A DNA stretch of 64,000 nt from Halomonas sp. (GTDB lineage Bacteria > Pseudomonadota > Gammaproteobacteria > Pseudomonadales > Halomonadaceae). Made by a program: the position numbers and the translations under genes. Below, one piece after another: positions 52,984-64,000 of this stretch. A model generated the notes under the pieces. It did no database searches. It saw nothing but the letters and a program-made list of their open reading frames with translations, and had not been told where the DNA came from. Position 1 is the first letter of the stretch. Each line of letters opens with the position of its first letter. The stretch spans positions 1 to 64,000 of the forward strand of contig NZ_JAFWFN010000031.1 in the NCBI RefSeq assembly GCF_017515565.1, written 5' to 3'.

Positions 52984-54999
52984 ATGCGCTCTACATCACC
53001 CCAGCAAACGCTGAAAGAAGTATTCGGTTTTGACGACTTTCGCGGCGGCCAGCAGGCGGTGGTGTCCAGAGTGCTTGAAGGGCACTCTACCGCGGCGATT
53101 TTTGCCACCGGCGCGGGGAAGTCACTCTGCTACCAGCTTCCGGCGTTGCATTTACCCCATCTCACCTTAGTGGTGTCGCCACTGCTGGCGTTGATGCAGG
53201 ATCAGCTCGCGTTTCTGACCCGCCACGGTGTGGCCGCGGCGAGTATCGATTCCACTCAAGACCGTGATGCCACCCGGGAAGTGATGGAGCGCGCCAAAAG
53301 CGGCGAGCTGAAAATCCTCATGGTGTCGGTGGAGCGGTTGAAAAATGAGCGGTTTCGCAATTTTCTCCGCCAAGTTCAGATATCGCTGTTGGTCGTGGAT
53401 GAAGCTCACTGCCTCTCTGAGTGGGGGCATAACTTCCGCCCCGATTATCTGAAGCTGCCGGACTACCAGCGCGACTTTGCCATTCCTCAAGTGCTACTAC
53501 TGACGGCCACGGCGACGCCCACCGTTATTGCCGATATGAGCGAGAAGTTTGCCATCGCACCGGATAACGTTATCACCACCGGTTTTTACCGCCCCAATCT
53601 TGAGCTGCTGGTGGCACCGGCTATGGAGGATCGCCAGCAGCAGTTGATTAACTGGCTAAAGCCGCAGATGCAGCCGGGTAGCGAAGCGCCGACGATTATC
53701 TATGTCACCCTGCAGCAAACCGCCGAGCAGGTGGCGAAGGCGCTGGCGGCCCAGGGGATTGCTGCCCAGGCCTACCACGCGGGGCTGGATTCCCAGCGAA
53801 GGGATGCGATTCAACGTCAGTTTATGGGAGGTGAGTCGCCCTGCATCGTGGCCACCATTGCGTTTGGCATGGGTATCGATAAGGGCGATATTCGTAACGT
53901 GGTGCACTTTGATCTGCCCAAATCCATTGAGAACTACAGTCAGGAGATTGGCCGGGCAGGGCGCGATGGTCTGCCTTCCACCTGCCTGACCATGGCCGGG
54001 CGGGATGGCCTGCGGGTGCTGGAAAATTTTGTTTACGGCGATACCCCCGAATACGCTGGTATCTACCGCCTGTTGGAGGAGATCGCTACGGCAGGCCAAG
54101 CCCCGGATCGCCAGTGGGAAGTACTGCTCAACACGCTTTCCCGGGATACCAATATCCGCCTGCTACCGCTAAAAACGCTGCTGGTACGGCTGGAAATGCA
54201 CGGCATTATCGCCCCACGCTATGCGTTTCTGGCCGAGTATCGACTGCGCTATCACCTTGAACCTAGTGAACTAGTGGGTCGTTTTGAAGGCGAACGTGCT
54301 GCCTTTGTGCGCCTTATTATCGATAATATTCCGATTGCCCGCACCTGGGGAACGGTGGATTTTGACCGCCTGCATCATGCCGGGCAGGCTCAGCAAATTG
54401 ATGCCTCCCGCGCTCGCGTTATCACTGCGCTTGAGTATTTTCAGGATAAAGGCTGGCTGACACTGGAAGGCAAGCGGATGACCGATGTTTATGAGGTGCG
54501 TCAGCCCGGTTTTGCCATTGAGGCGCTGGCGAGTCAGCTATATGACGAGTGCCTACATCGAGAGCGTATCGAGATCGACCGGCTCCAGGCCATGCTGGCG
54601 CTGTTTGAGTCTGAGAGCTGCCTGACTAGACGGCTAGCCGAGCACTTTGGTGATAGTACCTTTGGTGACAGCACGTTTGATGCTCTACCTGATGGCGAAC
54701 AGGGCCGATGTGGACACTGCTCGGTGTGTTATGGTCGCCCTGTGCGGCTGCCCGATGCGCCGCCGCAGCCCGCATTGTCGAAGGCTGATTTTCAGCGCTA
54801 CGCCACGCCGCTGATTGAGCGCCACACAGAACAGCTCGGCCAGCCGCTCACTGCTCAGCGACTGGCGCACTTTCTGTGCGGCTTAACCATGCCGATTTTT
54901 ACCCCGCTCAAAGCCCGCACTCTTAACGGCTTCGCGGTTTTTGAGCAGCGCGCCTACCCCGAGGTGCGTGAGTGGACGCAGGCGATGCTAGGCCAGTAG
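52984..54999 (+). CDS. RecQ-family ATP-dependent DNA helicase (atypical C-terminus)
   Basis: A 671-residue superfamily 2 helicase. Motif 0 is FRGGQ, Walker A is ATGAGKSLCYQLP, the DEAH box is VVDEAHCLSEWGHNFRPDY, motif III is LLTATAT and motif VI is QEIGRAGRDG. The zinc-binding region runs SCLTRRLAEHFGD to CGHCSVC, with a doubled FGDSTF inside the loop between the first and remaining cysteines. The C-terminal 75 residues do not look like the HRDC domain of canonical RecQ. It is therefore probably a paralogue rather than RecQ proper, so no gene symbol is given. Its end overlaps the convergent flavoprotein gene by 12 bases. Confidence 0.88.
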   Translation: MRSTSPQQTLKEVFGFDDFRGGQQAVVSRVLEGHSTAAIFATGAGKSLCYQLPALHLPHLTLVVSPLLALMQDQLAFLTRHGVAAASIDSTQDRDATREVMERAKSGELKILMVSVERLKNERFRNFLRQVQISLLVVDEAHCLSEWGHNFRPDYLKLPDYQRDFAIPQVLLLTATATPTVIADMSEKFAIAPDNVITTGFYRPNLELLVAPAMEDRQQQLINWLKPQMQPGSEAPTIIYVTLQQTAEQVAKALAAQGIAAQAYHAGLDSQRRDAIQRQFMGGESPCIVATIAFGMGIDKGDIRNVVHFDLPKSIENYSQEIGRAGRDGLPSTCLTMAGRDGLRVLENFVYGDTPEYAGIYRLLEEIATAGQAPDRQWEVLLNTLSRDTNIRLLPLKTLLVRLEMHGIIAPRYAFLAEYRLRYHLEPSELVGRFEGERAAFVRLIIDNIPIARTWGTVDFDRLHHAGQAQQIDASRARVITALEYFQDKGWLTLEGKRMTDVYEVRQPGFAIEALASQLYDECLHRERIEIDRLQAMLALFESESCLTRRLAEHFGDSTFGDSTFDALPDGEQGRCGHCSVCYGRPVRLPDAPPQPALSKADFQRYATPLIERHTEQLGQPLTAQRLAHFLCGLTMPIFTPLKARTLNGFAVFEQRAYPEVREWTQAMLGQ

Positions 55000-56382
55000 C
55001 TCAGCGGCGCTTTTGCCCGCCACTGTGCCCAGCACCACGGCGCTAAGCAGCCCGTTGCCGGAAAGGTAGCCACTGTCGTTGGAACCCGACACCCCACGGG
55101 CGGCACCGCCTGCGGCAAACAGGTTGGGCAGCGCCTGACCCTGAGTATTGAGTACTCGCGCAGATGAATTCACCTCTAAACCGCCCTGGGTGTGAAACAG
55201 CGCACCGGTGACACGAATGGCGTAGTAGGGTGGTTTAAGCAGGTTCATGGGTTCAAAACGGCGGCCAAAGGTATCTGCCGTTTGCTGTTTGGCATGCTGC
55301 TGCATCTCCGTGAAGGTAGCCTGCAGTTCTGTTAGCGGAAGGTTCAAGCCAGCGGCCATCTCTTCAAGGTTGGCAAAGCTTCGCACCGCACCGCCTTCCT
55401 GGGCATTACGGTAATCCTCAAAGGCTTGGGCGGATTCATGTATGCGCGCATCAAATAGGTTCCAGGCTACCTGCTCCGGCTGAGCCAGCACTTTGGCCGC
55501 CTGCTCGGAGTAGCCGCCGTGCTCGTTGGAGAAACGCTCGCCGTTTAGATTGACCTGAATGCCGCCCTGCATCATCAGTGCCCAACTTATTAACGTCTGA
55601 TGGGGCGTCGCTAACGAGCCGTGCCCTTGGCAGGCTCCTAGATCTTTTGTACTGGCGCCCATGGCCTGACCCCACAGTAGCGCGTCGCCTTGGTTGCCTT
55701 CATGGCCATAGTAGAGTGCGTGTTTGAGTGTCGGCAGGTAGCGTTCAACCAGCTCCACGTTACCGCCATAGCCATTGCAGGCCAGAATCAGCGCGTTGCA
55801 GCCAATGCTTTCGCGGCTGCCGTCCGGGCGCTCAAGGGTGATGCCCCGCACTCGCTGAGTGTCATCAACGTGCAAATCCACTACCCGCGCCTGGGTTAAA
55901 ATATCGATGCCCGCGGCTTCTGCAGCGTTGAGCAGTGCGCCCATTAGCTCTTCACCGGTGCGCCGTGGGGTTGCGTGCATGCGCAGGTGGCGATGGCCTG
56001 GGTAGAGAAAGCCTTCCACTAACTCAAAGGGGACGCCGTGCTGATCCGCCAGCCACTCAATGGTCGGGCCAGATTGGCTGGCGAGTAGCTCGACAATCGC
56101 CGGGTCTGCTTCAAAGCCGTTCTTCTTTTGTATATCTTCCGCCATGGCCTCGGCAGAGTCCGTGACGCCCAGCTCATGTTGAAAGCGTGTATTAGCGGCG
56201 GGAATAAAGCCCGACGACATCGCCGTGCTGCCACGGGGCAGGGCGTCGCGCTCTAAAACGACAAGCTCAATGCCCGCTTCCTGGGCGGCCAGCGCTGCGA
56301 CCAGGCCGCAGGCTCCCGCACCGATAATCACCAGCGGCAGGTGGGCATCAAAGCTATCGTGGGTATAGGGGATAATCGCCAT
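54988..56382 (-). CDS. FAD-dependent oxidoreductase, fumarate reductase/KstD-like
   Basis: A 464-residue flavoprotein of the succinate dehydrogenase/fumarate reductase superfamily, without haem or signal parts. The FAD loop is LVIIGAGACGLVAALAAQEAG near residue 17. The capping region holds RRTGEELMGALL. The C-terminal SGSNDSGYLSGNGLLSAVVLG closes the FAD site. Relatives reduce or introduce double bonds next to carbonyl groups (fumarate, urocanate, steroids). As the last gene of the six-gene minus operon it could interconvert a saturated and unsaturated diacid, imide or ring. Its ATG shares one base with the preceding stop (TAATG). Confidence 0.82.
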   Translation of the reverse strand: MAIIPYTHDSFDAHLPLVIIGAGACGLVAALAAQEAGIELVVLERDALPRGSTAMSSGFIPAANTRFQHELGVTDSAEAMAEDIQKKNGFEADPAIVELLASQSGPTIEWLADQHGVPFELVEGFLYPGHRHLRMHATPRRTGEELMGALLNAAEAAGIDILTQARVVDLHVDDTQRVRGITLERPDGSRESIGCNALILACNGYGGNVELVERYLPTLKHALYYGHEGNQGDALLWGQAMGASTKDLGACQGHGSLATPHQTLISWALMMQGGIQVNLNGERFSNEHGGYSEQAAKVLAQPEQVAWNLFDARIHESAQAFEDYRNAQEGGAVRSFANLEEMAAGLNLPLTELQATFTEMQQHAKQQTADTFGRRFEPMNLLKPPYYAIRVTGALFHTQGGLEVNSSARVLNTQGQALPNLFAAGGAARGVSGSNDSGYLSGNGLLSAVVLGTVAGKSAAELLA

Positions 56383-57314
56383 TACGCCTGCTCCGCTGAA
56401 TGGTGGAAGGCATTCAAAATCTCACCCGCCGGGGCCTGCCACACATCCGGATGTCCGCTGATATGCGCCAACACGTCTTCCAGGCAAGCAATGCGATGGG
56501 GCTGGCCCACCAGCCAAGGATGCAGGTTCAGCGCAAACAGGCGGCCACCTTGTTCGCGGGACTCTTCGAGCAGAAAATCGAAGGCGTCTTTAACCTGGGT
56601 CACCCAGGAGTCTTCCGAGTGCAGGTTTTGGCTCATCACGAACTGGTCTTCGATCTCGGTGGCCAGCGGCATCATGGTTAAACTGCCTGTCTTGGTTTCA
56701 CACGAATAAGGCATATCGTCATTCACCCAGTCGGCGCAGTACTCAATGCCGTTTTCTGCCAGCAGGTCAGGGGTGTTGAAGCTTTGGTGTTTGGCGGGGC
56801 TTAGCCAACCGCGAACAGGCTGACCAGTCACTCGGCGCAGAGTATCCACAGAGCGTTTGACCAGCTCAGCCTCCTCTTCAATCGGCTGGCCGCCATAGTG
56901 CAGGTGATCCATGTTCCAGCCGTGGGCGATAAATTCACCGCCATGCTCTTTTAAGCGCTGCACCAGATAGGGCGTCTGCTCCGCCAGCTGTGCGTTGATC
57001 GCAAAGGTCGGCGTGATGCTGTGTGCCGCCAGCGCTTTTAAAACGCGATAAATGCCCACGCGGTTGCCGTAATCCCGCAACGAGAAGTGGCGTAGGTCTG
57101 GGTAGGGCATGGTCATGCCGTTAGGTACTTTAAACGGCTTGCCGCGCTGGTTTAGCGGGTAGAACTGCAGCGAAATATTGATCCACACCGCCAGGGTTTT
57201 GCCTTCGGGCCAAGTGACTGGCGCGCGCTCACTCAGCATCGACCATTCATAGCGATCATGGTCGTAGCCGTGGCGGCGGTAAGGGTAGTCGAGATAGTCG
57301 TCGTTAAGCGCCAT
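56382..57314 (-). CDS. PuuE-type polysaccharide deacetylase family protein, paralogue 2
   Basis: A 310-residue NodB-fold protein. It has the NodB-like core (LAVWINISLQFYPLN, LRDYGNRVGIYRVLKAL, FAINAQLAEQTP, EFIAHGWNMDHLHYG). It lacks the Asp-Asp pair and the HxxxH zinc motif of true polysaccharide deacetylases. This is the state of the PuuE allantoinase and cyclic-imide hydrolase subgroup, which open cyclic amides. The ATG at 57314 follows a GGGGGAA site and overlaps the upstream paralogue by 11 bases; the frame's in-frame start at 57467 lies inside that gene and is rejected. It differs clearly from paralogue 1, so the two may act on different rings or as a pair. Confidence 0.78.
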   Translation of the reverse strand: MALNDDYLDYPYRRHGYDHDRYEWSMLSERAPVTWPEGKTLAVWINISLQFYPLNQRGKPFKVPNGMTMPYPDLRHFSLRDYGNRVGIYRVLKALAAHSITPTFAINAQLAEQTPYLVQRLKEHGGEFIAHGWNMDHLHYGGQPIEEEAELVKRSVDTLRRVTGQPVRGWLSPAKHQSFNTPDLLAENGIEYCADWVNDDMPYSCETKTGSLTMMPLATEIEDQFVMSQNLHSEDSWVTQVKDAFDFLLEESREQGGRLFALNLHPWLVGQPHRIACLEDVLAHISGHPDVWQAPAGEILNAFHHSAEQA

Positions 57315-58272
57315 AGCGTTCCCCCTGTTTGCGCGCGGAGGCGGCCTGGGCCGCCATGCTGTCGAGGGCGGCATCGTAATAGTTGGCCAAGTAAAAATCG
57401 GCAATTTCGCGCCCGGTGGCGACCCACACATCCGGGTGGCCGGTGATGTACTCAAGCGCCTCTTCAAACGCTTTAATACGGTGAGGGCAGCTCACTTGGT
57501 AATTGTGGGTGGGAATGCACATCACCGTGCCGGACTCTGCGCCCTCGGCATACAGGCGGTCAAAGTGGCGCTTGAGCATGGTGGCGTATTGGCGCGGCTC
57601 TACTTTGTTCACTGCGTAGACGATAGTGTCGTTCATCTCCAGCGAGTAGGGCATGGAGATAAACCGCTTGCCGGAGCGAACGCTGATCGGCGTCGGCTGG
57701 TCGTCGTGGAATAGGTCGCAGGTATAAAGCCCGCCCTTATCACCAAATAGTTCTTCGCCTACTTCGGCAAATAGATCCAGGGTGCGCTCTGAGTGGGAGA
57801 GTGCTGGCGCCAGGTATCCCGCGCAGGCCTGGCCGGTATAGCGGTGAATGGTTTCCATACTGTCGCGGATCATCGCCCGCTCTTGGGCTTCGCTAAGGCC
57901 GTAGGTGTAGCGGGTGTTGTAAATGCCGTGGCTGAAAAACTCCCAGTCACGCTCGCGGCACATCTCAATGATCTCGGGATGGTGCTCGCAGAGCGCTACG
58001 GAAAGCGACACCGAGCCGCGAATGCCGTATTTATCCAGCAGCGCCATCTGACGCTGGTGGCCAACCCGGTTGCCATAGTCGCGAATGCTGTAGCCGGGCA
58101 CCGAAGGGTGCGGGTGTGGCCAAGGGTTACGCTGTGGGTTCGGCGGTGGGTCAAGCTCGTAATACTCAATATTGGGGGCTACCCAGAAGGCCACCTTGGC
58201 GCCTCCGGGCCAAGTGATTTTGGGCCGCTGGTCGTAGGCCCAGTAATCGTAAACGCCAAGTGACTCTTTCAT
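57304..58272 (-). CDS. PuuE-type polysaccharide deacetylase family protein, paralogue 1
   Basis: A 322-residue NodB-fold protein with the same layout as its neighbour: AKVAFWVAPNIEYYELDPP, IRDYGNRVGHQRQMALLDKYGI, EFFSHGIYNTRYTYG near residue 112, and the later PTHNYQVSCPHRI. As in the paralogue, the zinc-binding HxxxH of NodB enzymes is not present (His115 is followed by Asn at the fourth place). A cyclic-amide hydrolase activity, as in PuuE, is therefore more likely than sugar deacetylation. It starts 12 bases after the amidohydrolase gene. Confidence 0.78.
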   Translation of the reverse strand: MKESLGVYDYWAYDQRPKITWPGGAKVAFWVAPNIEYYELDPPPNPQRNPWPHPHPSVPGYSIRDYGNRVGHQRQMALLDKYGIRGSVSLSVALCEHHPEIIEMCRERDWEFFSHGIYNTRYTYGLSEAQERAMIRDSMETIHRYTGQACAGYLAPALSHSERTLDLFAEVGEELFGDKGGLYTCDLFHDDQPTPISVRSGKRFISMPYSLEMNDTIVYAVNKVEPRQYATMLKRHFDRLYAEGAESGTVMCIPTHNYQVSCPHRIKAFEEALEYITGHPDVWVATGREIADFYLANYYDAALDSMAAQAASARKQGERYGA

Positions 58273-58284
58273 TGCTGGCTCCTA

Positions 58285-58953
58285 TTACCCATTACCGTCC
58301 AGCCACGCTAACACCTCGGCAACCGGCAGCACGTCGGCATACTTGAGGTGCAGGTCGGTCAGGTTGGCGTAGTGGTAGCTTTCGTGTTTATCCGCGACGC
58401 ATTCCATCGGCACGATGGTGCGGTAGCCCCGGGACAGGCTCTCTACAGCGGTGGCGCGAATGCAGCCAGAGGTAGAGCCGCCGGTAATAATTACCGTGTC
58501 GACCTGATGCCACACCAGTAGCGACTGCAGCGGCGTTTCAAAAAAGGCTGAGGGCATACGCTTGGTGTAGATCACATCGCGGCTGCGGTCGATCTCGCAG
58601 CGCTCGTCGAACTCGGCGCGCTCGGAGCCATACTTAATGTTTTGCAGCGAGTCAGGCGTATCGGTGCGGGTACCCCAAACGCCAGCGTCTTCGGCGGAGT
58701 CTAAAAAAGCGACGTGGGTCCAAACCACCGGCCAGCCTTTCTCCCGAAAACCGCGCGCCAATTGGTTGGTGTAAGCCAACTGCTTGGGGTCGGTTTCGTA
58801 AGCAGTTTTGAAGAGATCGGTGCGGGTGTAGGCTTTTTGCGGGTCGACGTTCACCAACACCGCTTTATTGCCAAAGCCAAATGGCACCCGCTGCGGGTTG
58901 GCCATTACCTCGGAAAAAATCTCTTTCGCCGTTTTGTCGGTGGTCAGCATCAT
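58285..58953 (-). CDS. Isochorismatase-fold amidohydrolase
   Basis: A 222-residue cysteine hydrolase. The Asp-Lys-Cys triad is visible as VNVDPQKAYT (Asp37), YTKRMPSAF (Lys131) and GGSTSGCIRATAV (Cys164). Members with this pattern hydrolyse N-carbamoyl groups (N-carbamoylsarcosine amidase) or half-amides (maleamate amidohydrolase); isochorismate hydrolysis is unlikely outside a siderophore cluster. Two ATGs stand in tandem; the second (58950) has the better distance from AGGAG. Its place beside ring-opening hydrolases suggests that it removes the ammonia or carbamate left after ring opening. Confidence 0.82.
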   Translation of the reverse strand: MMLTTDKTAKEIFSEVMANPQRVPFGFGNKAVLVNVDPQKAYTRTDLFKTAYETDPKQLAYTNQLARGFREKGWPVVWTHVAFLDSAEDAGVWGTRTDTPDSLQNIKYGSERAEFDERCEIDRSRDVIYTKRMPSAFFETPLQSLLVWHQVDTVIITGGSTSGCIRATAVESLSRGYRTIVPMECVADKHESYHYANLTDLHLKYADVLPVAEVLAWLDGNG

Positions 58954-59013
58954 CGTCTCCTGAATTTATTTATTGGTATTTATAAATAACGGGCACGGTT
59001 TGATAAATGAGCG

Positions 59014-59931
59014 CTAGCGATTGTCGTACTGTTCGCCAAGCTCCAGCATCGCTTGGGTGCCTAAGTAGTCGTTAAGCTGTTTGAAATCGAGCATCTGGTC
59101 GCGGAAGGCGTCGGTGGTGCCATCCTGTTTTAGCGTGGCAAAGAAACGGCTGGCCATGTGGGTAATCGCCCGCACCAGCGCGCCGGGGAAAATCACCAGC
59201 GAGAAGCCAAGGTCTTCCAGCGCCTGGGCGTTCTGCAGCGGCGTGTCGCCGCCTTCGACCATATTGGCCATGATGGGCACCTTGCCTTTGAACTGCGTCA
59301 TGATCTTGCGGATGTCTTCGTCGCTACGGATACCTTCGATAAACAGCATATCTACGCCCGCTTCATAATAGGCCTGGGCGCGCTCAATAGCGCTGTCAGT
59401 GCCTTCCACGCCCAGCGCATCGGTTCGGCCAATAATGAGCGTGCTGTCGCTTTCTCTGGCGTCTAAGGCAGCATGCAATTTGCCAACCATTTCGCTTTTG
59501 GAGACCAGGGTTTTACCGCGCAGATGGCCGCAGCGCTTCGGGTAGGTTTGGTCTTCAAGTTGAATAGCGTTGGCGCCAGCGCGCTCCAACAGGCGCACGC
59601 TGCGCATCACGTTCATGGCGTTGCCAAAACCGGTGTCGCAATCCACGACCACGGATAAGTTGGTGCGCTCGCGAATGTGCGACATGGCGGTGCAAATTTC
59701 AGTAATACTGAGCAGGCCAATATCCGGTCGCCCCAGTTGGGTGTAGGCCAGGCTGGCGCCGGAAAGGTAGACCGTATCAAAGCCTGCCTGCTCGGCAAGA
59801 GACGCGCCTAGGGCGTCAAACACGCCGGGGGCAACCACAATGGAGCTGTCGTTCAACTGCTGTTTAAGTTGGGTGGGGCGGTGTGCAGCCTGCGGTGAGT
59901 CCGGTTGAGACGTAACGTGTTGGCGTGTCAT
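59014..59931 (-). CDS. Isocitrate lyase/PEP mutase superfamily lyase
   Basis: A 305-residue TIM-barrel enzyme. The metal site is VVDCDTGFGN (Asp97, Asp99). KRCGH at about residues 132-136 is the mobile-loop motif with the catalytic cysteine, found in C-C lyases (isocitrate, 2-methylisocitrate and dimethylmalate lyases) rather than in mutases. GRTDALGVEGTDSAIERAQAYYEAGVD follows, as usual. Candidate substrates are malate- or citramalate-type acids cleaved to pyruvate plus a short carboxylate. A LeuCD-type hydratase in the same regulon could make such a substrate. The exact acid cannot be read from the sequence. Confidence 0.82.
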   Translation of the reverse strand: MTRQHVTSQPDSPQAAHRPTQLKQQLNDSSIVVAPGVFDALGASLAEQAGFDTVYLSGASLAYTQLGRPDIGLLSITEICTAMSHIRERTNLSVVVDCDTGFGNAMNVMRSVRLLERAGANAIQLEDQTYPKRCGHLRGKTLVSKSEMVGKLHAALDARESDSTLIIGRTDALGVEGTDSAIERAQAYYEAGVDMLFIEGIRSDEDIRKIMTQFKGKVPIMANMVEGGDTPLQNAQALEDLGFSLVIFPGALVRAITHMASRFFATLKQDGTTDAFRDQMLDFKQLNDYLGTQAMLELGEQYDNR

Positions 59932-59974
59932 AACTATCTCGTCATTATAAGGTGAGCGAATGGTAGGGTAAGCG

Positions 59975-60403
59975 TTAGCGGTGGCTGCCTGTGTTAGCGA
60001 CCAGCGCTAAATCGTTCCAAACGTCTTGGCGGGTAATCAAACCATCGGTTAATTCAAAGCGGTCAATGAAGCGCACACCAGTAGATGTGCTGCCATCCAA
60101 CCACTCCACCGCCAGCTCGCCATGGCAAACCACTACGCAGCGGGTGGTGGAAGTGCCATGGCTTGGATAGCGGCAGAGATCCACGGCATGAAAGGTTTTG
60201 CTCACTCGGCGGTAGCGGGTTTTTGCCCACTCAACGACCTCGCTTAATCGCTGGATAGCCGGTGCGCCAGGGAACTGCATCACCACATTAGCCGCCAGGT
60301 ATCGCTCTGCGCTGACAAGGTCGCGGGCTTCCATGGCACTTAGAAAAGCGCGCACCTGCTTTACATCGTGGCTTTCTAAGTCAGTCATCTCTGCGTTAGG
60401 CAT
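59975..60403 (-). CDS. NTF2/SnoaL-like protein
   Basis: A 142-residue cone-fold protein. It runs VRAFLSAMEARDLVSAERYLAANVVMQFPGAPAIQ, then VEWAKTRYRRVSKTFHAVDL, and ends RFELTDGLITRQDVWNDLALV, a typical nuclear-transport-factor-2-like sequence. Such proteins can be small isomerases, hydrolases or subunits, and the sequence does not decide. It is the first gene of the minus-strand operon, starting about 120 bases from the palindromic operator that it shares with the divergent GntR gene. Confidence 0.72.
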   Translation of the reverse strand: MPNAEMTDLESHDVKQVRAFLSAMEARDLVSAERYLAANVVMQFPGAPAIQRLSEVVEWAKTRYRRVSKTFHAVDLCRYPSHGTSTTRCVVVCHGELAVEWLDGSTSTGVRFIDRFELTDGLITRQDVWNDLALVANTGSHR

Positions 60404-60616
60404 TTCGACTCTCTTGCAACTAGCTGCTCACGTGAGGCCACATCGTTAGCGATACGAAACAGCGCTGGTTCTGTGATAATGGCTTTCAAGGGGCAGTGGT
60501 TGTGTTATTGATTAGCTGTCGATATGTATTATATATAATACATTTTTATGTCTATTATTATCCCTACGTCAAGCCTGACACGAATTTTTTGAACAATATC
60601 CTAAGGAGAGGCGTGG
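60404..60616. promoter_or_regulatory. Divergent promoter region of the catabolic operon and the GntR gene
   Basis: This 213-base gap between the NTF2-like gene (minus) and the GntR gene (plus) is AT-rich around 60505-60600. It contains the perfect palindrome at 60524-60543. TTGATT at 60508-60513 and TATAAT within the palindrome could be promoter parts, with a longer than ideal spacer. Confidence 0.6.
60524..60543. promoter_or_regulatory. GntR operator site 1
   Basis: ATGTATTATATATAATACAT is a perfect 20-base palindrome. Its core TGTATTA-N4-TAATACA recurs at 61446-61463. It lies between the divergent catabolic operon and the GntR gene, the expected place for autoregulation by a GntR dimer. 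Confidence 0.78.
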
Positions 60617-61423
60617 ATGAGTGAGGCACAAACCTCCGCGGTGGGGGGCACTAAATCACATCGCATCTACCTGCTGTTGAAAGACGCTATCTTGAGCGGA
60701 CGGCTGCCCGCAGGCAGTAAATTGCCGGGTGAAAATAAACTGGCGGAGCAGCACGGGGTGTCCCGAGTCACTGTTCGGCGTGCGATGGAAGCGCTGCAAG
60801 CGACAGGCATGGTAGAGCGTAAAGCGGGTGTGGGTACGGTGGTGCTGGAGCAGCCGTTGGACGCCACGGTGATGACCGCCAGCGTGTCTAACCTAATGCC
60901 TAATATGGTCAAGATGAGCCAGGCTTCTCAGGTTCGGTTGCTGGAGTTTGCCTATGTGCTGCCGCCGGAAATGATCCGCGAACGGCTGGGTATGGGGCCG
61001 AGTGGGAAGGTGCAGCGTTCGGTGCGGGTGCGCATGGTTGACGATAAGCCGTTTTCCCATCTGGTGACCCATGTGCCTGAGCCTATCGCTCTGCACTACA
61101 ACGAGATGGATTTAGCCAATACGCCGCTGTTTGTGCTGCTTGAGCGCAGCGGGGTGAAGGTCGACCACGCCTCCCAATCGATTTCAGCCACTTTGGCCAG
61201 CCATGAGGTGGCCAAGGCGCTGGATGTTGCCGTTGGCTCGCCGCTGATTTCACTGACCCGCGTGGTGTTTGATGAGCAGGGTCGAGGAGTTGAACACCTG
61301 GATGCGCTCTATCGTCCGGATCGCTATCGCTTCCAAATTGACCTAGAACGCAACGGCGATGATAACTCCCGCTACTGGGAGCCAAAGGTGGGTGGAATGC
61401 CCACCGATGGGAAGGGTAAGTAG
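60617..61423 (+). CDS. GntR-family regulator with UTRA domain
   Basis: A 268-residue regulator of the HutC subfamily. Residues 15-75 are the winged helix (YLLLKDAILSGRLPAGSKLPGENKLAEQHGVSRVTVRRAMEAL, with the recognition helix at the end). Residues 95-250 are a UTRA effector domain (SNLMPNMVKMSQASQVRLLEF, RSVRVRMVDDKPFSHLVTHVPE, LISLTRVVFDEQGRGVEHLDALYRPDRYRF). The ATG follows AAGGAGAGG. UTRA domains bind small metabolites, so an intermediate of the neighbouring pathway probably releases it from the two palindromes that flank its gene. Confidence 0.9.
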   Translation: MSEAQTSAVGGTKSHRIYLLLKDAILSGRLPAGSKLPGENKLAEQHGVSRVTVRRAMEALQATGMVERKAGVGTVVLEQPLDATVMTASVSNLMPNMVKMSQASQVRLLEFAYVLPPEMIRERLGMGPSGKVQRSVRVRMVDDKPFSHLVTHVPEPIALHYNEMDLANTPLFVLLERSGVKVDHASQSISATLASHEVAKALDVAVGSPLISLTRVVFDEQGRGVEHLDALYRPDRYRFQIDLERNGDDNSRYWEPKVGGMPTDGKGK

Positions 61424-61445
61424 CGTGATTGGGTTATCTTTTTAA

Positions 61446-61463
61446 TGTATTAAATTTAATACA
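61446..61463. promoter_or_regulatory. GntR operator site 2
   Basis: TGTATTAAATTTAATACA is a perfect 18-base palindrome with the same outer arms as site 1. It lies 23 bases after the GntR stop and 107 bases before the LeuC-like ATG, next to a TTGACC that could be the -35 of that gene's promoter (about 61488). It places the hydratase and TRAP genes under the same regulator. Confidence 0.78.
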
Positions 61464-61569
61464 GATTTAAAATTAAAAAAAATACATTTGACCTGTGTTG
61501 TAAAATTGCGCTAGTTGTATTGGGTAAGAACGATAAGTCTAACGAAGGCCGAGGCAACGAGCGACGACC

Positions 61570-63009
61570 ATGAGCACCCCCACAACGCTGTTTGACAAAG
61601 TTTGGCAAGCCCACGAGGTTCACCGCAGCGAAAGCGGTCAGAGCCTGCTGTGGATTGACCGTCACTTTGTTCACGAAGGCTCCTTCCATGCGTTCAACAA
61701 ACTCGCTGAACGCGCGCTACCCGTTGCCAGGCCCGATTTAACCTTCGGTATTGCCGATCACTATGTACCAACCCTAGCCCGCGATCTGGCAGGCGTTGCT
61801 GATCCCAAGGTGCGCTCGATGATTGAGCAGCTCACCCGCAATACTCAGCAGCATGGGGTGACGCTGTTTGGTTTGGATGACCCGCGCCAGGGCATAGTGC
61901 ATGTGCTAGGCCCCGAACAGGGGCTTACCCAGCCCGGCATGGTGATGGTGTGCGGCGATAGCCACACCGCCACCCACGGCGCCTTTGGCAGCATTGCCTT
62001 TGGCATTGGCGCCTCGGAAGTGGCCCACGTGCTGGCGACGCAAACCCTGTGGCAAAGCAAACCCAAAGTGATGCGGATCACCGTTGATGGCCAACTGGCC
62101 GAAGGCATCACTGCTAAAGATATTGCGCTGACCTGGATTGCGCGCTTAGGCGCCGACGGTGCACGGGGTTACGCCATTGAGTACGCTGGCGAGGCAATCC
62201 GTTCACTCTCCATGGAGGCACGGCTCACGCTGTGTAATCTCTCCATTGAGGGCGGTGGCCGCTGCGGCATGATTGCCCCGGACCCAACGACCTTTGAGTA
62301 TCTGCGTGACCGCCCCTGGAGCCCAAAGGGGGAGGCCTTCGAGCAAGCCTGCGCTTACTGGTCCACGCTCTACAGCGATCCAGGCGCTAATTTTGATCTT
62401 GAAGTAACGCTGCATGCGAATGACATCGCACCGACGGTGACCTGGGGTGTTTCCCCTGAAGAGGCGCTGCCGATTGATCGCTCAGTGCCTGATCCTGACC
62501 AACTGAGTGATCCGGCGAAAGCACGCCAAGCCCGGGATAGTCTGACTTATATGGGATTAATGCCCGGACAAAAGCTTACTGATATCACCATTGATCGAGT
62601 CTTTATCGGTTCTTGCACCAATGCGCGCATTGAAGATTTGCGCGCCGCTGCCGCCGTGCTGGCCGGGCACAAAAGCCGTGTGCCCGGCATGGTATCGCCC
62701 GGCTCAACGCTGGTGAAAACCCAAGCCGAAGCCGAAGGGCTAGACCGCATCTTTATCGACGCAGGGCTCGAGTGGCGACACTCAGGCTGCTCCATGTGCG
62801 TCGGCATGAACGGCGATTTAGTGGCCAGCGGTGAGCGCTGCGCTTCGACCACCAATCGCAACTTCAAGGGCCGCCAAGGGCCAGGCGCACGTACCCATTT
62901 GATGTCGCCTGCCATGGTAGCCGCCGCAGCGGTGAGTGGTCGGCTAGCCGATGTCCGCACGCTAAATGGCAGCGCTGGCTCAACCGTTCAGCCTGCAGGA
63001 GCACCGTAA
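61570..63009 (+). CDS. Aconitase-family hydro-lyase large subunit (LeuC-like)
   Basis: A 479-residue [4Fe-4S] protein close to LeuC. The cluster cysteines lie in IGSCTNARIEDLRAA and HSGCSMCVGMN; VCGDSHTATHGAFGSIAFGIGASEV and STTNRNFKGRQGPGARTHLMSPAMVAAAAV are present. LeuC/LeuD isomerise isopropylmalate, but this subfamily also includes citraconate/maleate and dimethylmaleate hydratases. No leuA or leuB is adjacent and the operator suggests regulation with catabolic genes, so a hydratase role is inferred. The segment HSGCSMC replaces the LPGCSMC I remember for E. coli LeuC. Confidence 0.85.
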   Translation: MSTPTTLFDKVWQAHEVHRSESGQSLLWIDRHFVHEGSFHAFNKLAERALPVARPDLTFGIADHYVPTLARDLAGVADPKVRSMIEQLTRNTQQHGVTLFGLDDPRQGIVHVLGPEQGLTQPGMVMVCGDSHTATHGAFGSIAFGIGASEVAHVLATQTLWQSKPKVMRITVDGQLAEGITAKDIALTWIARLGADGARGYAIEYAGEAIRSLSMEARLTLCNLSIEGGGRCGMIAPDPTTFEYLRDRPWSPKGEAFEQACAYWSTLYSDPGANFDLEVTLHANDIAPTVTWGVSPEEALPIDRSVPDPDQLSDPAKARQARDSLTYMGLMPGQKLTDITIDRVFIGSCTNARIEDLRAAAAVLAGHKSRVPGMVSPGSTLVKTQAEAEGLDRIFIDAGLEWRHSGCSMCVGMNGDLVASGERCASTTNRNFKGRQGPGARTHLMSPAMVAAAAVSGRLADVRTLNGSAGSTVQPAGAP

Positions 63010-63647
63010 TGCAACCAATTACCGTATTGGATTCCCTTGGCGTTGCCCACGCCGTAGCGAACGTAGACACCGACCAACTGATACCCGCTCGCTTTATGAA
63101 AGAGCCGCGCAGCGTTGGCTACGGTCAGTTTTTACTTTATGACGTTCGCCACGATGAGCAGGGCACACCAGACGCCGAGTTTATTCTTCATCGCCCCAAT
63201 GCTGCCGACGCTGAAGTGATGGTCAGCCGCCGCAATTTCGGAGCAGGGTCTTCCCGGGAAGCGGCGGTGTATGCCCTGGTTGATTACGGCTTTCGCTGCG
63301 TGGTGGCGCCAAGCTTTGGCGATATTTTTGCGTCTAATGCCGTTAATAATGGTTTGCTGCCTGCAGTCGTAGAAGAGGATGACGCCGAGCGTTTGCTGGC
63401 AGCCCTGGGCGATGCACCTGCCGCCATCTATGTTGATTTAGAGAAGCAATTAATTCGTGTCGCCGAAGTAGAGGTTAGTTTTTCAATTAGCCCCGTTTGG
63501 CAAACCAAGCTACTGAACGGTTGGGATGATATCGATATGACCCGCCAGCACGCTGACACCATTACCAATTTCGCAGCGCAGTACGTACAGCAGTTTCCTT
63601 GGACGGCGGCGCAGCCGCCGGAAAGCTCCATTATAAGTAAAGGTTAA
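63009..63647 (+). CDS. Aconitase-family hydro-lyase small subunit (LeuD-like)
   Basis: A 212-residue swivel-domain subunit that completes the active site of the large subunit. It has NVDTDQLIPARFMK, SRRNFGAGSSREAAVYALVDYGFRCVVAPSFGDIF and ASNAVNNGLLPAVV. The substrate loop after NVDTDQLIP reads RFMKEPRSVGYGQFLLYDVR and differs from E. coli LeuD, consistent with another substrate. Its ATG overlaps the large subunit's stop by one base (TAATG), so the two are made together. Confidence 0.85.
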   Translation: MQPITVLDSLGVAHAVANVDTDQLIPARFMKEPRSVGYGQFLLYDVRHDEQGTPDAEFILHRPNAADAEVMVSRRNFGAGSSREAAVYALVDYGFRCVVAPSFGDIFASNAVNNGLLPAVVEEDDAERLLAALGDAPAAIYVDLEKQLIRVAEVEVSFSISPVWQTKLLNGWDDIDMTRQHADTITNFAAQYVQQFPWTAAQPPESSIISKG

Positions 63648-63691
63648 TGCCGAGCCTAAAAGATATGCCCAAACCTACTCATAACAACAAT

Positions 63692-63742
63692 ATGCACGCT
63701 TGCATCAGATGTTTTTCAAAAATGGGTTTACAAAAAAACATC
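63692..63742 (+). other. Two inverted repeats between the hydro-lyase and TRAP genes
   Basis: ATGCA (63692-63696) pairs with TGCAT (63701-63705), and GATGTTTTT (63708-63716) pairs with AAAAACATC (63734-63742). They lie in the 141-base gap and could stabilise or process the mRNA, set the relative level of the periplasmic binding protein, or serve as a weak terminator. Confidence 0.4.
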
Positions 63743-63788
63743 AACACAACAACCGCTATAAAAATCACCTAATGCAGGAGACTAACCA

Positions 63789-64000
63789 ATGAAAAAAGTA
63801 ACCCTTACTCTGGGCATGCTCACCGCCCTGGCTTCCACTCAGGCGCTGGCCGTTGACCAAATCACCGCTGTGCATGCGTTTCCGCCTTCTCTGATCTATA
63901 CCCAGAGTTTTCTGGAATTCGTCGATAAGGTAAACGAGCGCGGCGAAGGCGTGGTGCAGATCAATGTACGCGGCGGCCCTGAAGTCATCGGCCTTTCTGA
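63789..64000 (+). CDS. TRAP transporter substrate-binding protein, DctP type (cut by window end)
   Basis: The first 70 codons of an exported protein, open to the end of the window. AGGAG lies eight bases before the ATG. A signal peptide covers about residues 1-22 (MKKVTLTLGMLTALASTQALA). The mature start HAFPPSLIYTQSFLEFVDKVNERGEGVVQINVRGGPEVIG follows the DctP pattern. TRAP systems import organic acids using ion gradients and need DctQ and DctM, presumably beyond the window. Its position after the hydro-lyase genes suggests that the pathway's substrate is an acid taken up by this system. Confidence 0.78.
   Translation, partial: MKKVTLTLGMLTALASTQALAVDQITAVHAFPPSLIYTQSFLEFVDKVNERGEGVVQINVRGGPEVIGLS

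Follow-up and report, generated by a model that had tools for sequence, protein, structure and literature searches.

A GntR-controlled gene set of Halomonas sp. that may scavenge substituted maleimides of tetrapyrrole origin

What is the use of a bacterial regulon in which two PuuE-type hydrolases, an isochorismatase-fold amidase, a LeuCD-like hydro-lyase, an ICL/PEPM-family lyase, a flavoenzyme and a TRAP-type importer are gathered around one GntR regulator? The question is raised by a locus at the end of a 64,000-nucleotide stretch (the window) of Halomonas sp. contig NZ_JAFWFN010000031.1. This conserved gene set looks made to import and open small nitrogen-containing rings and to turn them into pyruvate and ammonia, the rings probably being leftovers of chlorophyll- or bilin-like pigments. 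On balance it seems probable that the locus is one regulon, under GntR control, for scavenging substituted maleimides, which are the monopyrrolic breakdown pieces of chlorophyll-/bilin-type tetrapyrroles. Gene content, conservation, active-site residues, a shared operator and, in other genomes, linkage of the core genes to RCCR-like reductases were seen directly; from these we infer every substrate and reaction. The features of the locus are as follows.

54988..56382, minus strand: Fad, a flavocytochrome-c/TcuA-like FAD enzyme of 464 amino acids, below family cut-offs
56382..57314, minus strand: PuuE2, the second PuuE/cyclic-imidase-like hydrolase
57304..58272, minus strand: PuuE1, the first PuuE/cyclic-imidase-like hydrolase, 322 amino acids
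58285..58953, minus strand: Ich, an isochorismatase-fold amidase, presumed half-amidase, with the triad D37/K131/C164
59014..59931, minus strand: lyase, an ICL/PEPM-family C-C lyase with KRCGH
59975..60403, minus strand: SnoaL-like small protein, optional
60525..60542: putative operator 1, the perfect palindrome TGTATTATATATAATACA, between the divergent SnoaL and GntR genes
60617..61423, plus strand: GntR/UTRA regulator
61446..61463: putative operator 2, the perfect palindrome TGTATTAAATTTAATACA, upstream of the leuC-like gene
61570..63009, plus strand: LeuC-like large subunit of the hydro-lyase
63009..63647, plus strand: LeuD-like small subunit
63789..64000, plus strand: start of dctP (TRAP), the first 212 bases being in the window
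Past the window, in contig positions: dctP to 64787, dctQ 64825-65358 and dctM 65358-66671

Each arm is tightly packed, Fad starting on the last base of PuuE2 and leuD on the last base of leuC; for PuuE2, which overlaps the end of PuuE1, the start codon ATG at 57314 is favoured over TTG at 57467. All six families named in the preliminary description of this DNA were found where it had placed them and in its order. The importer among them is present, although only the opening of dctP falls inside the window; the contig runs on to 108764, the TRAP genes finishing at 66671. The SnoaL-like gene and the two 18-base palindromes were absent from that description.

The conservation of the locus was assessed by an Ich search with one genome per species, which gave 397 stretches with a relative; the best 80 by similarity to the window Ich were kept (L025-L104). 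Loci with DctM at 70% identity or more were designated TRAP-type, and per-gene presence thresholds ranged from 40 to 70% identity. Forty-five of the 80 loci are TRAP-type. Ich, PuuE1, PuuE2, the lyase, GntR, DctP and DctQ are present in all 45, Fad, LeuC and LeuD in 44, and SnoaL in 39. The exception is L086, the contig of which ends inside PuuE2, hiding the Fad position, and in which LeuCD is absent between dctP and GntR. The families thus do co-occur with the GntR gene, as the earlier account had proposed to check, 44 of 45 TRAP-type loci being complete apart from the optional SnoaL. Among all 80 loci, 79 hold PuuE1 (identity of at least 60%) and 75 hold PuuE2 (at least 45%); the loci without PuuE2 (L043, L079, L090, L091 and L103) or PuuE1 (L103) lie at contig ends, to judge from stretch lengths and the positions of the matches. 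Ich-PuuE1-PuuE2 is the invariant core.

TRAP-type records are labelled Halomonadaceae, Marinobacter, Alloalcanivorax, Saccharospirillum and Terasakiella, and further ones are metagenome-assembled genomes (MAGs) of Paracoccus, Hydrogenophaga, Burkholderiaceae and others. Of 36 other species in the genus of the window, 14 have an Ich copy (94-97% identity); the cluster is therefore patchy, which fits an accessory trait.

Both palindromes share the form TGTATTA-N4-TAATACA, and one stands upstream of each arm. With up to two mismatches this palindrome occurs twice in the window, against a mean of 0.06 in 100 shuffles. The operator scan of relatives covered 42 TRAP-type loci, being all of L025-L068 that hold DctM and GntR; with up to three mismatches the motif is found at both promoters in 39 of them (the exceptions are L044, L048 and L065), and there are five further motif matches there. 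Among the 36 loci L069-L104, an operator with 0-1 mismatch was found only in L072 and L086, the remainder showing 2-3 mismatches, and TRAP-type L101 has no copy with 0 or 1; it is therefore mainly a TRAP-type feature. The GntR regulator is presumed to bind both putative operators, and the proposal of a single regulon is borne out to the extent that one putative operator is common to both promoters in the window and in these relatives. As far as sequence comparison goes, the case for a catabolic module is strong.

What, then, would the ring-opening enzymes act upon? PuuE1 and PuuE2 match TIGR03212 at 2e-34 and 3e-31 (119 and 108 bits), without reaching the allantoinase cut-off of 424.6 bits, and match solved PuuE (3cl6) and HpPgdA (3qbu) over the catalytic domain. 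By these matches they are homologues in the PuuE/cyclic-imidase branch of the polysaccharide deacetylases, and imide hydrolysis is predicted. According to PMC9304392, the imidase HxnM is related to PuuE and HpPgdA (3qbu); 3-hydroxypiperidine-2,6-dione is its proposed substrate for ring opening, and a P. putida cyclic imide hydrolase homologue shares 64% identity with it.

Ich possesses the Asp-Lys-Cys triad and conserved sites of the isochorismatase-fold cysteine amidohydrolases (NicF, BiuH, CSHase). Asp37, Lys131 and Cys164 are each near-invariant (at least 98.5% in an 81-row alignment), and eight of the nine site residues given in PMC5806882 are matched, with Tyr42 replacing Phe, when placed by position offsets and not by an alignment with BiuH. 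Its best solved match is 4l07, labelled just "Hydrolase, isochorismatase family"; solved relatives also include the 3ot4/3uao protein (2.8e-20) and carbamoylsarcosine amidase. The structure 3uao is that of NicF, a maleamate amidohydrolase described as converting maleamate to maleate and ammonia (PMC5806882), and Ich is presumed to be a half-amidase on a maleamate-type substrate.

The same proteins could be taken to serve ureide, hydantoin or pyrimidine catabolism, the PuuE-like enzymes opening a ureide ring and the isochorismatase-fold enzyme cleaving a carbamoyl group. Allantoinase PuuE (TIGR03212), RutB and BiuH are indeed among the family matches, and Microbulbifer loci hold a third PuuE-like protein nearer to allantoinase (255 bits, also under the 424.6 cut-off). 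The window proteins, however, lie far under the curated cut-offs, Ich reaching 20.5 of 378 bits for RutB and 28.9 of 370 for BiuH, and the annotated plasmid loci described below name no allantoicase, ureidoglycolate or Rut gene. LeuCD and a malate-type lyase are not known to have a role in ureide or pyrimidine pathways. The ureide/pyrimidine reading was rejected on its family scores, and we hold it improbable.

The hydratase and the lyase raise a different doubt, namely that they are housekeeping duplicates, giving the cell a second set for the leucine or the methylcitrate pathway. Both LeuC and LeuD score above the 3-isopropylmalate dehydratase cut-offs of NCBIfam (670 against 560 and 172 against 116 bits), and among solved structures the lyase matches methylisocitrate lyases best, followed by petal death protein and the 2,3-dimethylmalate lyase 3fa3 (4.5e-47). 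The same genome, however, carries a second leuCD (G000:C2), to which the window LeuC and LeuD show 53% and 40% protein identity, and a second lyase of the PEPM/ICL family, 38% identical to that of the window. The LeuD pocket motif is altered, reading SSRE-AAVYA in the window and SSRE-HAPWA in the genome's other LeuD; SSRE-AAVYA occurs in 14 of 14 aligned TRAP-type LeuD rows, which form one clade (support 100/100), and the two lyases separate in the tree with the same support (100/100). At 295.6 bits the window lyase falls below the PrpB cut-off of 354.4 that would mark a methylisocitrate lyase, and its PKRCGH aligns with PKKCGH of petal death protein and KRCGH of methylisocitrate lyases. Judged by identity, motif and tree, LeuCD and the lyase of the window are distinct from the housekeeping copies; a leucine/methylcitrate duplication was rejected on the ground that the genome has separate copies of both, and is extremely improbable.

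The order of reactions suggested by these identities is plausible. The TRAP importer would take up the acid, and candidate substrates of the route are hematinic acid, methyl-ethyl maleimide and methyl-vinyl maleimide. PuuE1 and PuuE2 would open the imide ring to a maleamate, from which Ich would release ammonia and a 2-methyl-3-R-maleate; LeuCD would hydrate the latter to a 2-methyl-3-R-malate, and the PEPM/ICL lyase would cleave this to pyruvate and R-CH2-COOH. The pyrrole rings of chlorophyll-/bilin-type pigments carry a methyl group adjacent to another substituent, so that pyruvate would be the common product. Starting from hematinic acid, the hydrated acid would be a homologue of 2-methylisocitrate and the products would be pyruvate and glutarate. 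The flavoenzyme may channel saturated alkylsuccinates into the route; our guess is that Fad would convert alkylsuccinates to alkylmaleates, or the reverse.

Maleimides are thiol-reactive, and the module might accordingly be thought to remove reactive electrophiles rather than to serve growth. That one regulon joins a dedicated importer to a hydratase and a C-C lyase instead suggests carbon and nitrogen use, which makes detoxification very improbable as an explanation. In favour of maleimide scavenging, a study of leaf-related samples detected hematinic acid as a product of chlorophyll (PMC7318184); for senescent leaves and lake sediments, that paper refers to previous findings of maleimides and hematinic acid.

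Does the core keep the same company elsewhere? An Ich search of plasmids returned 21 records, and gene contents were taken from five annotated loci among them; one further record is without annotation. The Burkholderia plantarii plasmid carries PEPM lyase, FAD enzyme, LeuD, LeuC, GntR, Ich, PuuE, PuuE and an MFS carrier; the Sphingomonas JE1 plasmid carries CaiB/BaiF, an HMG-CoA-lyase-like protein, Ich, PuuE, PuuE, LeuC, LeuD and PEPM lyase; and the Acidiphilium plasmid carries a CoA-transferase and HMG-CoA-lyase pair, Ich, PuuE, PuuE, LeuC, LeuD and FAD enzyme. Most of the same enzymes thus recur together on plasmids in other orders, in agreement with the grouping first proposed. The two remaining annotated loci run counter to this: that of Comamonas is Ich-PuuE-PuuE without LeuCD or lyase, and in Thioclava an Ich of 53% identity has no PuuE annotated beside it.

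Recurrent neighbours at non-TRAP loci on chromosomes are family III CoA-transferases (16 loci) and HMG-CoA-lyase-like proteins (nine loci). In NCBIfam the CoA-transferases are nearest to succinate-glutarate and succinyl-CoA:mesaconate transferases, and a CitE-like protein is nearest to RipC, in each case below cut-off; the HMG-CoA-lyase-like protein is above its subfamily cut-off. A CoA-transferase with an HMG-CoA/CitE-type lyase would split the same hydroxy-acid as its CoA ester, not as the free acid. The logic of hydration followed by cleavage, also put forward in the preliminary description, fits such alternatives (HMG-CoA-lyase-like protein plus family III CoA-transferase, or CitE-like protein) beside the same core. 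LeuC of the Halieaceae-type loci forms a clade separate from TRAP-type LeuC; the core therefore seems to have gained a LeuCD-type hydratase as a neighbour on more than one occasion. The L093 core locus includes an MmgE/PrpD protein, which would be in keeping with a side branch in which the flavoenzyme handles saturated acids; one member of that family is described as a methylsuccinate isomerase (PMC12290011).

The tie to tetrapyrroles comes from other core-bearing genomes. In a profile search, an RCCR/FDBR-like protein was found within the fetched stretch in eight of the 80 loci (five Microbulbifer, Litorivivens and two gammaproteobacterial MAGs), the profile itself having been built from six of those eight. 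PF06405 (RCC_reductase, cut-off 24.9) is exceeded by the proteins of Microbulbifer (49.5 bits, 4e-13) and Parahaliea (70.8 bits, 1.3e-19); other linked members score under Pfam cut-offs, and PF05996 alone gives matches in 10 of 33 core-bearing non-TRAP genomes, four of them above cut-off. An AlphaFold2 model of the Microbulbifer protein (mean pLDDT 66) has Arabidopsis RCCR as its top PDB match (E 6.7e-11, probability 1.00), and the next fold matches include PebB, phytochromobilin synthase, PebA and PcyA. With phmmer, one RCCR-like protein (L123) retrieved no FDBR from the PDB sequences, the relation being visible by Pfam profile and fold only. FDBR superfamily members are reported from non-photosynthetic heterotrophic bacteria, among them the pre-PcyA clusters (PMC10151467).

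In an order sample of 390 genomes, Ich was found in 24 and an RCCR-like gene in 12, all 12 within the 24 (Fisher 1.2e-16); this test is the cleaner one but counts related genomes, and its probability, like the next, is optimistic from kinship and profile make-up. Ich and the reductase lie less than 60 kb apart in nine of the 12 genomes (nearest 6-45 kb). In a class sample of 369 genomes, Ich occurs in five (the window genome included) and an RCCR-like gene in three, with one genome holding both. Core-bearing genomes hold RCCR-like genes in 14 of 33 non-TRAP cases and one of three others; the comparison of 14/33 with 2/364 class genomes lacking Ich (Fisher 4e-15) may be confounded by common habitat, and its genus-collapsed form (9/22 against 1/267 groups) is rough, the grouping having been made by hand. 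Since the rows of profile A2 are reductases of Ich-bearing genomes, it may favour an Ich-linked subfamily: of the 12 order genomes, G064 and G083 supplied rows, and G060 and G063 are Microbulbifer like two of the rows. Sequences adjacent to the his operon in L118 and L119, which resemble another FDBR type, were excluded from it. The linked lineages include Microbulbifer, Litorivivens, Parahaliea, Alkalimonas, a Spongiibacteraceae, a Nevskiaceae and Chromatiales MAGs.

Reductase-bearing genomes hold two to six RCCR-like copies each, and the gene content around them was recounted in eight reductase regions fetched for the purpose. A relative of the MFS carrier is present in all eight. A Rieske oxygenase, a nitrilase-GNAT protein, an acyl-CoA-dehydrogenase-like protein, an aldehyde dehydrogenase, a CopD-like membrane protein and an SDR are each found in six of the eight; an Amdase/maleate-isomerase-like protein is found in five, and a PHBH-like FAD monooxygenase, a CoA-transferase and an HMG-CoA-lyase-like protein in four each. 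Rieske and RCCR-like genes are at most 4 kb apart in five of the eight (L126, L174, L175, L177 and L180); the Litorivivens and G456 stretches yielded no Rieske gene. In both L083 and L099 a span of about 9 kb takes in the Rieske gene together with the core and the reductase. The one Rieske protein examined shows Rieske and VanA_C domains above cut-off, a weak KshA_C match and no match to the C-terminal Pfam model of plant PaO. Alkalimonas (L175) has an unbroken run of LeuD, LeuC, lyase, Amdase-like gene, a single unassigned gene and RCCR-like gene, and the lyase falls in the clade of the window lyase, a placement that carries a long-branch warning.

A second isochorismatase-fold paralogue is also encoded in reductase regions (L169:2119-2970, L176:12855-13457 and L178:7326-7919; 64-66% mutual identity). 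The Arenicella loci L077, L081 and L097 have extra copies that are 54-62% identical to it, and its substrate may be a different half-amide. Three families whose examined members have no Pfam match (L171:3202-4170, L171:4189-5166 and L169:11720-12352) are each present in five of the eight regions and are candidate tetrapyrrole-handling families. In the genomes of the Luminiphilus/Halieaceae core loci L088, L089, L095, L098, L100 and L102 no RCCR-like gene was found; between them these loci carry DUF3108-like, CopD-like membrane, nitrilase and FAD-oxidase genes, and they may represent a third version of the pathway.

By what route would a macrocycle be opened? HO-type haem oxygenase was found in none of 16 genomes, its control giving matches in three of 14, which favours a Rieske-opened chlorin, or imported bilins, over haem by way of HO; HO-type haem oxygenase as bilin source was rejected on this count. 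Staygreen was found in none of the 16, but its control was silent, so that this count carries no information. Of the earlier suggestion that the maleimides derive from haem or chlorophyll, the tetrapyrrole part has gained independent support from the linkage of the core to RCCR/bilin-reductase genes elsewhere, while the HO-type haem route is not indicated. The his-operon neighbours mentioned above (L118:8256-8942 and L119:8873-9559) are a more distant FDBR-family gene lying directly after that operon in two gammaproteobacterial MAGs with no HO-type match.

A number of observations weigh against a pathway for tetrapyrrole-derived maleimides. RCCR-like genes were found in none of the 15 TRAP-type genomes examined (of 45), in none of the plasmid collection, nor in 19 of the 33 non-TRAP core genomes. 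Profile A2, which matches elsewhere, detected none in the window's own genome; PF06405 had no match there, its positive control also being silent. In three of the 12 order genomes Ich and the reductase are 461, 629 and 903 kb apart, and two RCCR-like genomes of one genus (G333 and G429; L130 and L131) lack a detected Ich, these being MAGs 84% and 71% complete. Window-type LeuC is present in just three of the eight reductase regions and the PEPM lyase in two. The LeuC of non-TRAP core loci forms its separate clade, and the LeuC and LeuD of Alkalimonas group with the ordinary copy of the window genome; a shared role is therefore not assured. The top solved match of the window lyase is, as noted, a methylisocitrate lyase. 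Finally, the leaf study reports that simple maleimides were not detected (PMC7318184).

Some of these points would suit the same imide to maleate to malate to pyruvate chemistry with an imide not derived from tetrapyrroles, such as a simple alkylmaleimide, citraconimide or an imide from another N-heterocycle. The want of RCCR-like genes in TRAP-type genomes and on plasmids agrees with such a source, as does the presence of carbamoylsarcosine amidase among the solved relatives of Ich, and CitE/RipC-like and CoA-transferase neighbours would suit citraconate-type C5 acids. It is at odds with the order sample, in which every RCCR-like genome carries Ich, in a genome-wide comparison confined, among ring-degradation families, to the RCCR-like one. 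We consider a non-tetrapyrrole imide unlikely, if deserving of attention. The linkage lends good support to a tetrapyrrole origin of the substrate, support that reaches the window through orthology of the core only, since no reductase was found in TRAP-type genomes or in the window genome.

A wider proposal is offered tentatively, as somewhat short of probable: marine and soil proteobacteria would mineralise chlorophyll-type tetrapyrroles by a complete route, of which the window would be a division-of-labour version that scavenges released maleimides only. In the complete route, a Rieske oxygenase and several RCCR-like reductases would open and reduce the macrocycle, further oxidases would cut it to monopyrrolic maleimides, and Ich-PuuE1-PuuE2 with LeuCD and lyase, or with CoA-transferase and HMG-CoA/CitE-type lyase, would lead to pyruvate.

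Chlorophyll is made and degraded on a scale of 10^12 kg yearly, and hematinic acid is a known chlorophyll leftover (PMC7318184); among the open-access PMC matches listed, none describes a bacterial gene set using such pigment fragments. If the reading is true, it would supply a missing step in the natural recycling of green pigments and genetic markers for the recycling of pigment nitrogen and carbon, and the fate of tetrapyrroles in sea and soil would become testable.

Further along the contig, past the window (72175-75414), lie a photoactive yellow protein-like gene and then acyl-CoA-ligase-like and aromatic ammonia-lyase-like genes, a trio which, judged from the sequence, resembles known photoactive yellow protein operons.

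Several known systems invite comparison. The pre-1 and pre-3 clusters of pre-PcyA are described as typically accompanied by haem oxygenase, V4R and globin genes (PMC10151467), in contrast to the 16 genomes here, which lack the HO family. In plant PAO/phyllobilin breakdown the Rieske enzyme PAO acts before RCCR, and the core-linked regions likewise carry a Rieske oxygenase and RCCR-like reductases, although the bacterial Rieske protein matches VanA_C and not the plant PaO model. NicF resembles Ich in its fold and Asp-Lys-Cys triad (3ot4/3uao, 2.8e-20), but the nearest solved structure to Ich is 4l07, and the substrate of Ich is a predicted one. In nicotinate fermentation, dimethylmaleate hydratase is followed by 2,3-dimethylmalate lyase. 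The likeness lies in an aconitase-family hydro-lyase and then a PEPM/ICL lyase giving pyruvate, the window lyase matching 3fa3; the difference is that the acid of the window would derive from an imide, and a reading of the loci revealed no nicotinate genes, with no search aimed at them. Comparable in its opening steps is the HxnM/HxnN route of Aspergillus nidulans, together with the P. putida imidase, in which, as described in PMC9304392, an imidase related to PuuE and HpPgdA opens the imide and an amidase frees the nitrogen. The product of that route is alpha-hydroxyglutarate, whereas the window combines two distinct PuuE-like proteins and a cysteine amidase with a hydratase and a C-C lyase.

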